Source of the DNA: Paenibacillus kyungheensis | Lineage (GTDB): Bacteria > Bacillota > Bacilli > Paenibacillales > Paenibacillaceae | Length of the DNA stretch: 64,000 nt | Assembly (NCBI RefSeq): GCF_028606985.1 | Contig: NZ_CP117416.1 | Location: forward strand, 2,642,001-2,706,000 | Direction of reading: 5' to 3' | Part shown: piece after piece, positions 57,419 through 61,204 of the stretch | Layout of the letters: each line of letters opens with the position of its first letter | How positions within the stretch are numbered: the stretch's first letter is position 1 | Translations under genes and position numbers: made by a program | Notes under the pieces: generated by a model | What the model was told of the DNA's origin: nothing | Databases searched by the model: none | Seen by the model: only the letters and a program-made list of their open reading frames with translations

Positions 57419-58369
57419 TCAGCTCGGTGACCAGTTACCATACCACGCATAACCCGTTCTTCTTTCCTGATCAATATCACTTAACTTATACTTCACAATA
57501 CCATCCCGTCCGACAAAGATCGGCTTGTTCGTATTCAATTCATAAAATCTCGCCCAGATCGGCTTGGTCACACTGGCATCATTAACCACTACTACATCAT
57601 TATTCGCTTTTACCACTTTGATCCCTACAATTTGCACAGCTTTGAACCAGTCTTCAGCAGCTTTGATAGAACTCGCAATTTGCGAAGTCGAAGGTCTGGT
57701 TTTGAGGAATTTCACAATCGTTGCACTTTCTTTGGAGCTCAGTGAAGGCACTTCATAGATGCGCGCTGCCGCAGGTTGGAGTGTATTGGAATCATGTTGT
57801 TGACCCCATACGGTTAGTTTGCCTCCTGACGTGACTTGAGTTTTCAATAGGCAAGTGACTCCTTTATCGACAGACTGTTTGCTTTTACTCGCTAGATTGC
57901 TATCGATAAATGCAAAGTCGCCTTTTTTATTAGCAACTTCATCCAGTAGAATCATCACATTGATCATCGCATCATCATTATATGTAATATGCGTATGATA
58001 CCCGGAGCTTTGATAAACTTGTGGCCATCCGCCATTAGCATATTGCATATTGATTAGAAAATTAATGCCTTTGATCGCAGCAGCCGAATATTTGCTATCT
58101 TTGGTTTTGGTATATTCACTGGCCAGTCTGCGAATCTCAGTATACGTTGCTTTGTTGTCGATCGTCGATTTTGCCCAATCTCCACTCGTTTCTGCATAAT
58201 CCTTTTTCCAGCCACCATCTGCTTGTTGATTTTTGATAATATCTGCCAGGCTTGCTGTTGTTCCCGAAGCATCTGCCGCCATAATCGTAGTGGTAGGTTG
58301 TAACAGCGCCACCGGTACAGACATGAGCATAGTGAAAGCGAGCGCAATCGATATTCTGTTGTTTTTCAT
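57419..58369 (-). CDS. Secreted PL10 pectate lyase
   Basis: 316 residues with a signal peptide ending near IMAA. Family motifs: QQADGGWKKDY, QYANGGWPQVYQ, ITYNDDAMINVM, VWGQQHDSNTLQPAAARIYEVPSL and the C-terminal WARFYELNTNKPIFVGRDG with YKLSDIDQERRTGYAWYGNW, all typical of PL10 enzymes. These cleave polygalacturonate by calcium-assisted beta-elimination outside the cell. Full length for a single-domain PL10. A perfect cre site lies 31 bp upstream. Confidence 0.93.
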   Translation of the reverse strand: MKNNRISIALAFTMLMSVPVALLQPTTTIMAADASGTTASLADIIKNQQADGGWKKDYAETSGDWAKSTIDNKATYTEIRRLASEYTKTKDSKYSAAAIKGINFLINMQYANGGWPQVYQSSGYHTHITYNDDAMINVMILLDEVANKKGDFAFIDSNLASKSKQSVDKGVTCLLKTQVTSGGKLTVWGQQHDSNTLQPAAARIYEVPSLSSKESATIVKFLKTRPSTSQIASSIKAAEDWFKAVQIVGIKVVKANNDVVVVNDASVTKPIWARFYELNTNKPIFVGRDGIVKYKLSDIDQERRTGYAWYGNWSPS

Positions 58370-58399
58370 ATCAATAAATCTCCTTTAGCATCCATTTTT

Positions 58400-58413
58400 T
58401 GATAACGCTTACA
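58400..58413. promoter_or_regulatory. CcpA cre site upstream of the pectate lyase
   Basis: TGATAACGCTTACA matches TGWNANCGNTNWCA at all defined positions, 31 bp before the start codon. Confidence 0.65.
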
Positions 58414-58573
58414 GATATTAATAGCGAGTTTAGTCTATTTTTTTATTTTTGTAAATAATTTCCTTTTAATTTGATATTAGATATAAAAAAACAGATCAAA
58501 GCTATAATAAATAGCTCGATCTGTTATGTGATTGGTCATTATTTGTGTTGTTGAACCGAAATTATCTTTACAT

Positions 58574-59179
58574 TTATTCGATCTTCGCACCCAAAGAACG
58601 TGCTAATAAGACAGCCTGTTCTCGATCTAACTTGGTGTTTTTGATCACCAGCACTTTCATATCTACCCCTTCAAGATTTGCACCTCTAAGGTCTGTTCCA
58701 TGTAGATTGGCTTTGATTAATACTGCTCCGGTTAGATCGCATTTTCTCAAGTCTGCTAGGGAGAGATCCGCATTAGAGAAATCTGTTTCGTAGAATTTAA
58801 TCTCTCGCAAATCTTGCTTTTTGAATATCGTATAGCTCAAATTCGTATACGACCAATCGCCCTGATTGAGCGTGATCCCATCCATTTGAGCGCCGGCAAA
58901 GTCCGAACCTGTCATTTTGCACAAGTTGAATTTGGCGACAAACAGATTCGCACCAGTAAATGAGCAATTTTCAAAAGCGGATTCGGTATGTATCGAACCG
59001 TTCAATGTTGCTCCCTTAAAATCACACTCGATAAATCGGCAATAACTGGTTTCTATTTCATCCATCGATACATTCATAAATGTGCATTTTTTGAACGTAC
59101 AACGAATCAGTTCACCATACCGCAAATCTCGTCCATCAAATTCTACTGCATCGTATTCTTGATCTTTATATTGATACAC
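58574..59179 (-). CDS. Pentapeptide repeat protein
   Basis: 201 residues, GTG start 59179 after GGAGG. Tandem A(D/N)LXX-type pentapeptides run through the chain (for example DFSNADLSLADLRKCDLTGA and ANLHGTDLRGANLEGVDM), giving a right-handed quadrilateral beta helix. Relatives include Qnr/MfpA DNA-gyrase protectors and McbG-like immunity factors, but many have no known role. Two-block architecture with a central break (GDWSYTNLSYTIF) is Qnr-like in outline. Monocistronic. Confidence 0.85.
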   Translation of the reverse strand: MYQYKDQEYDAVEFDGRDLRYGELIRCTFKKCTFMNVSMDEIETSYCRFIECDFKGATLNGSIHTESAFENCSFTGANLFVAKFNLCKMTGSDFAGAQMDGITLNQGDWSYTNLSYTIFKKQDLREIKFYETDFSNADLSLADLRKCDLTGAVLIKANLHGTDLRGANLEGVDMKVLVIKNTKLDREQAVLLARSLGAKIE

Positions 59180-59304: not shown

Positions 59305-59456
59305 TTGACAAATTTCTGGATCTCATGCTATCGTATAAAGCAATTACATATCTGGATTGTAACCGCTTACGTGGGCAAAACCTATAAGACTATGTTGGAA
59401 GAAGACTGCTCTTCTTTCTATCGTAGCTTTGGGTTTTGCCCTTTTTGTGTATTTAC
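59305..59456 (+). promoter_or_regulatory. Promoter, cre-like site and terminator-like leader of the SLH esterase gene
   Basis: TTGACA (59305-59310) and TATCGT (59329-59334) are 18 bp apart. About 20 nt into the transcript lies TGTAACCGCTTACG (59358-59371, one mismatch from cre), then a large hairpin: GGGCAAAACC pairs with GGTTTTGCCC, inner arms AAGAAGA/TCTTCTT, ending in TTTTT near 59452-59456, about 45 nt before the start codon. No plus-strand gene lies upstream, so this is likely a regulated leader. The rest of 59180-59304 shows no gene. Confidence 0.55.
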
Positions 59457-59499
59457 AAAAATCATTCCAGATGAATCAAGCTAACATTAAGGAGGAATT

Positions 59500-61152
59500 A
59501 TGTTGAGAAAAAAAGTAAGTATTTACGGGGTGACAATCTTTGCTTTGTTAATGATTCCAGTAGTATTCATCTCCAAACCTTCGATCGCAGAAGCTTCGTC
59601 TGTACAGTCGGTAGTCGCCAACACGTATATCGGTGACGCAGGAACTATGGTGGAGTCATTTGATATCACTGTGAATAACATCAGTACATATGATGATCTG
59701 CAAGCTAGCGACCTGGATATTACAGGTAATTATAACGGTTATCCGCTAAATGAAGCTGGCGAGATTGTACAACAGAATTACGATAATGATGGTATAGAAC
59801 TATCGATCAACGATCAGACGATTCATATGAAAGTGGCTCCATTCCGATATCCGGGTGGTTATGTATCACCATTCGCTGTTACAAGCAGTACCTATCCCGA
59901 TCTATCTTTTACCAAAGAAAAGGTAACCAAAGTGAATACACGTACAGTCGATGATTTTAAATCCAGTTCATTTACAGCAAGCAATGGAGCGACTTTACCT
60001 TATCGGTTAAAAGAAACGTCATCTACAAAGCCGCAACCTTTAGTTGTCTGGCTTCATGGCGGTGGTGAATTTGGAACCGATAATATGAAGCAATTAACCG
60101 AGAATCGCGGAGCTACGGTCTGGACAGAATCAGGGAAAGACACTTCTGTGCTCGCTGTACAATATCCGCAAAATTACGGTTGGGCGATCTATAATAATCC
60201 GGTAGAATTACCACAAATGCAAGCGTACTTCACTCTTCAATATGAACTGATTCAACAGTTGGTAGACGAAGGAAAAGTTGATCCAGAGCGAATTTATCTG
60301 GTCGGTGTATCTAGTGGTGGCGGTGGTGCACTTCGATTTATGATGCAGTACCCTGATCTATTTGCAGGTAGTATTGTGATTGCAGCCAAAGATGCAGTTG
60401 CCGATTACAAAGGAAGTGTAGAACCATTCAAGCAAGCACTTCAACCTTTAACCGATACTCCGATCTGGCTGATCCATGCAGAAAATGATCCGACTACAGA
60501 TAGCAGAACTACTACATTATCTTATCAAGCATTGACTGAACTGGGATCAACTAAAGTCAAGCAAACGCTGTATAGCGATGAATTTATGACAGAACACCAT
60601 TTCTACAATAAAATGTTGCACTGGTCATGGGTTCCTGCATTTAACAATTCTGAAGTCGTTAACTGGTTATTTGATCAATCCCGATCCAATCAGATTGTTC
60701 ATGCCAACCTAGCAGACGATGCAACAGTTACACGTGCTCAATTAGCACATGCACTTGCGAATGTTCTTCAACTACCTGAACCGACAGCCACACCATCATT
60801 TGCAGATATTTCAAATTCAGATATCAACAAACAGATTCAACAGGTGACTGCTCAAGGGTTGATGAAAGGAATGACAGCAACTACATTTGCACCTGATGAC
60901 AAAGTGACTCGTGCTCAATTAGCTACCGTTATCTCTAACTGGATCAATATGACACAGCAATCTACAGAGTCGAAGTCTCCAATTGTTGTTACTGATGTAC
61001 CTCAACAACACTGGGCCTATGCTTCTATCGAACATGTCTTACAGATGAAATTAATGAAAAATGACTCAACTTCTCTATTCCACCCTGCTCAACAGGTCAC
61101 TGGCAAAGAAGTCAATCAGCTACTAGCAGAGATAGCACAATCTCATTCATAA
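59500..61152 (+). CDS. SLH-anchored esterase/peptidase-like alpha/beta hydrolase
   Basis: 550 residues, ATG 59500 after AAGGAGGAA; signal peptide ends near AEAS. An N-terminal beta domain precedes the alpha/beta-hydrolase (about 155-400): oxyanion loop LVVWLHGGGEFGTDN, nucleophile elbow VGVSSGGGGALR, acid region LIHAENDPTTDS and histidine in TEHHFYNKMLHWSW. This resembles the COG4099 'predicted peptidase' and feruloyl/acetyl-esterase group. Three SLH domains follow (VTRAQLAHALANVLQL, GLMKGMTATTFAPDDKVTRAQLA, LMKNDSTSLFHPAQQVT). It is probably a cell-surface esterase acting on plant polysaccharides. Confidence 0.85.
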   Translation: MLRKKVSIYGVTIFALLMIPVVFISKPSIAEASSVQSVVANTYIGDAGTMVESFDITVNNISTYDDLQASDLDITGNYNGYPLNEAGEIVQQNYDNDGIELSINDQTIHMKVAPFRYPGGYVSPFAVTSSTYPDLSFTKEKVTKVNTRTVDDFKSSSFTASNGATLPYRLKETSSTKPQPLVVWLHGGGEFGTDNMKQLTENRGATVWTESGKDTSVLAVQYPQNYGWAIYNNPVELPQMQAYFTLQYELIQQLVDEGKVDPERIYLVGVSSGGGGALRFMMQYPDLFAGSIVIAAKDAVADYKGSVEPFKQALQPLTDTPIWLIHAENDPTTDSRTTTLSYQALTELGSTKVKQTLYSDEFMTEHHFYNKMLHWSWVPAFNNSEVVNWLFDQSRSNQIVHANLADDATVTRAQLAHALANVLQLPEPTATPSFADISNSDINKQIQQVTAQGLMKGMTATTFAPDDKVTRAQLATVISNWINMTQQSTESKSPIVVTDVPQQHWAYASIEHVLQMKLMKNDSTSLFHPAQQVTGKEVNQLLAEIAQSHS

Positions 61153-61170
61153 TGAACCAAATAAACAGCG

Positions 61171-61204
61171 AAACGGTATCTTATTAAAAAGATACCGTTT
61201 TTTT
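61171..61204 (+). terminator. Terminator after the SLH esterase gene
   Basis: AAACGGTATCTT pairs with AAGATACCGTTT around a 6-nt loop, followed by TTTT. The following 61205-61425 is AT-rich promoter space with nothing else seen. Confidence 0.82.

Follow-up and report, generated by a model that had tools for sequence, protein, structure and literature searches.

According to those parts of the published accounts that were drawn on here, antitermination proteins of the Bgl/Sac family bind a ribonucleic antiterminator (RAT) of 23 to 30 nt that partly overlaps a terminator (review, PMC4347634). In Clostridium acetobutylicum, deletion of the RAT led to read-through and the antiterminator was needed for induction (PMC12628678), and in Streptococcus mutans transcription of bglP starts 4 bp before the RAT, with a short stopped RNA being detected (PMC1489936). 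For NagY, a BglG-family protein of Enterococcus faecalis, 26 direct targets have been described (23 with a putative RAT), including genes for secreted and cell-wall-anchored antigens (PMC12502629).

In the stretch of Paenibacillus kyungheensis DNA analysed here (64,000 nt, referred to in its entirety as 'the window'), this known kind of switch, a RAT combined with a terminator, was found on an unusual target, a surface esterase. The esterase leader is very probably a RAT/terminator switch operated by LicT-dependent antitermination, with binding and induction being predicted. As in the window, the leader of Escherichia coli bglG has a 29-nt RAT fitting the same pattern, and a terminator-like end (GGGTTTTTTTG) precedes the start codon, but the E. 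coli RAT controls the antiterminator/PTS operon itself, whereas that of the window precedes the gene for an exported enzyme. The LicT regulon of Bacillus subtilis includes bglPH and the secreted beta-glucanase gene licS/bglS with its LicT-controlled RAT; there, as in the window, a RAT stands before an exported-hydrolase gene, but the enzyme is a glucanase without an SLH anchor, while that of the window is an SLH-anchored esterase. NagY resembles the window in that antiterminator targets lie beyond its own operon, and differs in its sugar (N-acetylglucosamine) and RAT sequence, with 0 occurrences of 'SLH' in the portion of text searched (PMC12502629); as its exported and wall-anchored targets are in print, a surface target of a BglG-family antiterminator has precedent. 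The bglGTH operon of C. acetobutylicum, with two RATs (leader and intergenic), a terminator overlap and induction by cellobiose, is another parallel, but the passages used from that paper name no esterase (PMC12628678). Among the titles and abstract openings searched, which came mostly from journals outside subscription, none dealt with an esterase or an SLH protein governed by LicT and a RAT.

A RAT overlapping a terminator before the esterase gene

The leader spans 59341-59499 and contains the 29-nt RAT and the terminator hairpin. The features of the locus were as follows:

59305..59334, plus strand: putative sigma-A promoter (TTGACA, 18 nt, TATCGT, with TG preceding the -10; consensus match only)
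59354..59382, plus strand: RAT of the BglG/LicT type, GGATTGTAACCGCTTACGTGGGCAAAACC, exact pattern match
59357..59372, plus strand: cre-like 16-mer, one mismatch to WTGNAANCGNWWNCAW, entirely within the RAT
59373..59446, plus strand: intrinsic terminator, with 5' arm GGGCAAAACC (59373-59382), 3' arm GGGTTTTGCCC (59431-59441) and T-run (59442-59446)
59490..59495, plus strand: ribosome-binding site AGGAGG, from sequence
59500..61152, plus strand: exported esterase of 550 aa with C-terminal SLH anchor (signal peptide, EstA-like alpha/beta hydrolase, SLH)
61170..61201, plus strand: terminator-like hairpin 3' of the esterase gene (consensus match only)

The RAT pattern, a consensus of about 29 nt for which the E. 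coli K-12 bglG leader (0 mismatches) served as yardstick, was fitted by the window element with 0 mismatches. The window contained no further match when up to three mismatches were allowed (0.03 expected; one turned up in 3 of 100 shuffles), and the reversed pattern, used as a control, gave 0 matches in every genome listed. The element had been overlooked in the original prediction. Folded alone, the 29-mer forms a hairpin with two asymmetric internal loops, of a strength not above that of shuffles (z -0.85).

A strong hairpin with a T-run, in a transcript without an upstream gene, had been noted before this gene, and both points held: folding of the 121-nt leader gave -43.7 kcal/mol, compared with -22.05 +/- 3.36 for 200 shuffles (z -6.44; 0/200 as good), and a same-strand gene is absent upstream, the neighbour at 58574-59179 being divergent. 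The structure proved to be a single long bulged hairpin followed by TTTTT rather than a multi-armed one, and the T-run lies 53 nt from the ATG instead of the 45 nt given earlier. Its 5' arm consists of the last ten bases of the RAT, which are common to both structures. The terminator-type leader proposed for this surface protein does look like a conditional terminator, but its logic differs from the one envisaged and appears to be that of a RAT and terminator switched by an antiterminator of the BglG/LicT type. The hairpin was not among the matches of a simple terminator scan of the region, presumably because that scan permits loops of 8 at most, and Rfam at gathering scores gave 0 matches across the whole window. 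Promoter-like matches in the region showed no excess (60 vs 57.4 in shuffles); several stand-alone orthologues have, as judged by eye, promoter-like sequence at the equivalent place, and a transcription start is expected near 59341. The hairpin downstream of the gene suggests a one-gene transcript.

In the proposed switch, transcription would begin near 59341, and without inducer the 3' end of the RAT would pair with the 3' arm of the terminator, RNA polymerase stopping at the T-run approximately 105 nt downstream. Uptake of a beta-glucoside by the PTS would release LicT from its inactive state; active LicT would bind and stabilise the RAT hairpin, so that the terminator could not form, and read-through would lead to production of the exported esterase with its SLH anchor.

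The predicted product of 59500-61152 is an exported, SLH-anchored EstA-like esterase. Its signal peptide was assigned by eye and its SLH domain was matched at 8.8e-13, while S271, D330 and H374, invariant among 15 aligned proteins, would by eye constitute the Ser-Asp-His triad of an EstA-like esterase. An SLH match was obtained for 13 of the 15 aligned members; no SLH was found in the full reading frames of the Amphibacillus cookii and Clostridium cibarium esterases, nor at two other Clostridium loci. The top match by sequence to a solved structure was PDB 3doh (E 1.7e-39, query 141-395), which we take to be Thermotoga maritima EstA, the database entry naming just a thermostable esterase; this is an esterase like that of the window, but the matched chain has no SLH part. 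A fold search with the predicted model (mean pLDDT 78, pTM 0.59, built with 15 sequences; hydrolase core good, residues 1-31 and 79-96 poor) also ranked 3doh first (E 1.1e-24), and given a TM of 0.44 by query and an rmsd of 8.2, only this rank is taken as evidence.

Conservation of the leader and its gene neighbourhood

Orthologues of the esterase were identified in 23 of 394 Paenibacillaceae genomes (E <= 1e-80), and a RAT precedes the gene in 22 of them (19 exact, 2 with one mismatch, and 1 scored at three mismatches because of a longer loop), which bears out the expectation of homologous structured leaders in relatives. In the exception, G129, where the orthologue is inside a bgl cluster, the 5' half of the RAT has been lost and the gene retained, with GCGGGCAAACC and the terminator-like GTTTGTCCGCTTTTTT kept. 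Within the genus of the window's genome, 7 of 16 genomes have a full-length orthologue, all seven with a RAT. From 80 named loci the 16 strongest were scanned, and 14 of these likewise had a RAT; most of the 16 evidently coincide with family genomes already counted. Outside the family, it was found in two of four loci (Clostridium folliculivorans and C. cibarium), and scans of the C. intestinale and Amphibacillus esterase loci found none. The C. intestinale locus (L065, 2539-6880) encodes an esterase with two hydrolase domains directly 3' of the gene for a PTS EIIC component, which again ties this esterase to a PTS. The RAT 3' end was paired into the downstream hairpin in all 24 leaders folded (22 from Paenibacillaceae, 2 from Clostridium), and a T-run of at least 4 was present in 23, that of L150 being 3.

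Covariation was assessed over 26 distinct RATs (18 Paenibacillaceae esterase leaders, identical ones dropped, 2 from Clostridium, and 6 other RATs of the window's own genome). The RAT hairpin had 99.6% of cells paired, 9 cells were changed on both sides, and the covariation score was 0.148, each of these values being reached by 0 of 500 shuffles. Two-sided change was confined to just two pairs, and 63/500 shuffles reach that number; further pair types were not above shuffles (485/500 reach their count), and six of the nine pairs were invariant. The counts are consistent with the predicted RAT fold; the match to the established motif carries more weight as evidence.

Gene neighbourhoods were drawn for 20 of the 23 orthologues (G006, G012 and the window's own genome, G000, being left out, the last viewed in the window). 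In 12 of these (L187-L198) the order is RAT-GH1-(RAT)-esterase-GH1-RAT-licT-RAT-PTS, the esterase being separated from the second GH1 by an opposite-strand gene in L189 and L190; except in G129, a RAT also precedes the esterase itself (11 of 12). In two more (L185, L199) licT and PTS genes are divergent from the esterase, while in the remaining six no licT was seen inside the 8.5 kb shown, one lying about 12 kb off in G087. Production of the surface esterase appears to be coupled to that of the plant beta-glucoside uptake system.

At least nine RATs were found in the window's genome using two patterns (seven sites, then two more; reversed control 0), with which RATs of other forms may be missed. 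Six are located at licT, beta-glucoside PTS or GH1 genes (C1:1696031, 2269207, 2270200, 2916226, 2918430 and 4882633), and three precede exported proteins, namely the window esterase, a carboxylesterase at 2247128 and a lipoprotein-like protein at 3792480. The carboxylesterase behind the RAT leader at G000:C1:2247128 (L176, L267) matches Pfam COesterase at 5e-80 and has, by eye, an apparent signal peptide. RAT leaders also precede a carboxylesterase in G110 (L248, L269; COesterase 1.9e-79, signal peptide by eye) and a similar one in G009 (L268; protein and signal peptide judged by eye). The leader at G000:C1:3792480 (L006, L017) is of the RAT/terminator type and precedes a lipoprotein-like protein with an Sde182_NH domain, its export judged by eye.

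The regulator and alternative explanations

Six CAT_RBD genes are present in the window's genome: three LicT over the cut-off, one GlcT over its cut-off, and two reaching no cut-off shown. The one closest to the window esterase lies approximately 212 kb off, and LICT1 (G000:C1:2269304) is farther. LicT over the curated cut-off was found in all 23 orthologue-bearing genomes, and in a LicT tree, which included only part of the other genomes' LicT copies and had two unsure long-branch joins flagged, LICT1 and the LicTs of the 12 clusters formed a single clade (support 97/97). On balance, LICT1 acting in trans would be the main regulator; the linked LicT of G065 and G219, which is not of the LICT1 type, counts against this.

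The upper stem of the esterase RAT reads CCG/UGG, vs CTG/CAG in the six other aligned RATs of the same genome. Among the 394 family genomes, 47 carry a CCG-type RAT; at 30 such loci, the first gene after it was GH1 in 18, the esterase in 8 and neither in 4. Three of these last four lead to a carboxylesterase by Pfam (L248), have a near-identical leader (L251), or lead to a CAT/PRD antiterminator gene (L244). In 18 genomes without the esterase a CCG-type RAT directly precedes a GH1 gene, indicating that the RAT is independent of esterase presence, and the CCG-type upper stem was ruled out on this ground as an esterase-specific signature. The RAT could instead be read by another BglG-family antiterminator (the GlcT-like one or the two unclassified CAT/PRD proteins), with the esterase answering another PTS sugar; the three CAT_RBD genes outside LicT and the divergent upper stem are in favour of this, but it is unlikely given that LicT-class genes accompany the esterase in 14 of the 20 neighbourhoods drawn and that CCG-type RATs also precede GH1 genes. 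LicT-dependent antitermination is the preferred reading, against which count the loss of the RAT 5' half in G129, the finding of only two double-changed RAT pairs, the short T-run of L150, and the lack of an antiterminator gene near the window esterase. Were the RAT a relic, carried from a bgl cluster and now non-functional, the 12-genome cluster arrangement and the CCG-type RATs before GH1 in esterase-free genomes would be accounted for; it has, however, stayed intact in the own-genus orthologues (7/7), G064 and G087, while loop and hairpin sequence changed, and the six of those RAT-keeping loci that were drawn have no licT within about 8.5 kb, which makes decay highly improbable.

A cre-like site had also been pointed out within the leader. 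The match at 59357-59372 is real at one mismatch, but it lies wholly within the RAT, and at that threshold only two of the 24 leaders retain a cre match there, those of G000 and of G009, its nearest relative; it is probably incidental. In the 60 nt preceding the RAT, a cre match at up to one mismatch was present in 7 of 24 leaders, each about 45 nt upstream and over the -35 region, one of them (TTGAAAGCGTTATCAA) with no mismatch, and none was found there in G000 and G009. At the promoter, catabolite repression is therefore plausible in several relatives, the window match perhaps being incidental, and such repression may come on top of the RAT switch. That CcpA alone acts through the leader site, the hairpin being an ordinary terminator, could draw on the in-RAT match and on those near the -35, but is very unlikely, since a cre site so poorly kept leaves the conserved RAT and its overlap with the terminator unexplained; as a main explanation it was rejected on both counts. 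Across the window, 19 cre-like matches were counted strand-wise (14 sites, palindromes counted twice), with 8.8 expected and 0/100 shuffles reaching 19; one of them (58399-58414) is found 30 bp ahead of the gene for a pectate lyase (57419-58369, minus strand).

The original prediction had further suggested shared control of this leader and that of the other SLH gene, and a riboregulator family common to SLH genes would be in keeping with the occurrence of CTTACGNGG in both leaders. The sequence does have two matches in the window, but the signal is weak, two or more being reached in 6 of 100 shuffles, and four relatives of the first leader, which clearly carry one different element, read GTTACGAGG (the base preceding TTACG is C in the window's SLH-fn3 leader and G in the four relatives). 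Moreover, a RAT is missing from the first leader, which is instead a separate conserved attenuator: a scan of the SLH-fn3 leaders at up to four mismatches gave no RAT, apart from one weak match in L228 that lies some 370 nt 5' of the leader. A shared SLH-leader family, for which next to no probability remains, was rejected for the missing RAT and the different element, and the theme is beta-glucoside use, not surface anchoring as such. The first leader (about 17130-17060, minus strand), belonging to a 1600-aa SLH-fn3 gene, is a strongly conserved hairpin attenuator in its own right, TTACGAGGAAGCACCTCGCTT followed by a terminator, in which a small GAGG-AAGCA-CCUC hairpin could, by eye, compete with the terminator. 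Among six SLH-fn3 loci compared, TTACGAGGAAGCACCTCGCTT was present in the leaders of the window and four relatives, and at the sixth, L229, which stands at a contig start, it was not found in the bases available before the gene. With up to two mismatches allowed, this 21-mer is found in five of the 16 genus genomes; the window's genome has a further copy (two mismatches) at G000:C1:2944195-2944215 (L236), before another gene, whose product has an apparent signal peptide.

A possible surface arm of the LicT regulon

It is possible, as a tentative extension, that the LicT regulon of Paenibacillaceae has a surface arm, in which exported esterases are under the beta-glucoside PTS switch and the tethered esterase deacylates 6-O-acyl beta-glucosides before uptake. 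The exported esterases concerned would be the SLH-anchored EstA-like enzyme and the carboxylesterase preceded by a signal peptide. Plant glucosides commonly carry 6-O-acyl groups, and phosphorylation by the PTS requires a free C6 hydroxyl, which would explain why esterases are switched together with the beta-glucoside PTS. The proposal draws on the esterase's place in the regulon, its export, the presence of another exported esterase behind a RAT, and general glucoside chemistry.

If this proposal is correct, the anchored enzyme would strip the acyl group from the sugar at the cell wall, beside the importer. A surface esterase of unassigned role gains a clear regulatory address, by which an RNA switch would link a cell-wall-anchored enzyme to a cytoplasmic PTS sensor, together with a predicted substrate class, acylated beta-glucosides. 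The findings suggest that scanning for RATs may assign roles to exported proteins in Paenibacillaceae.
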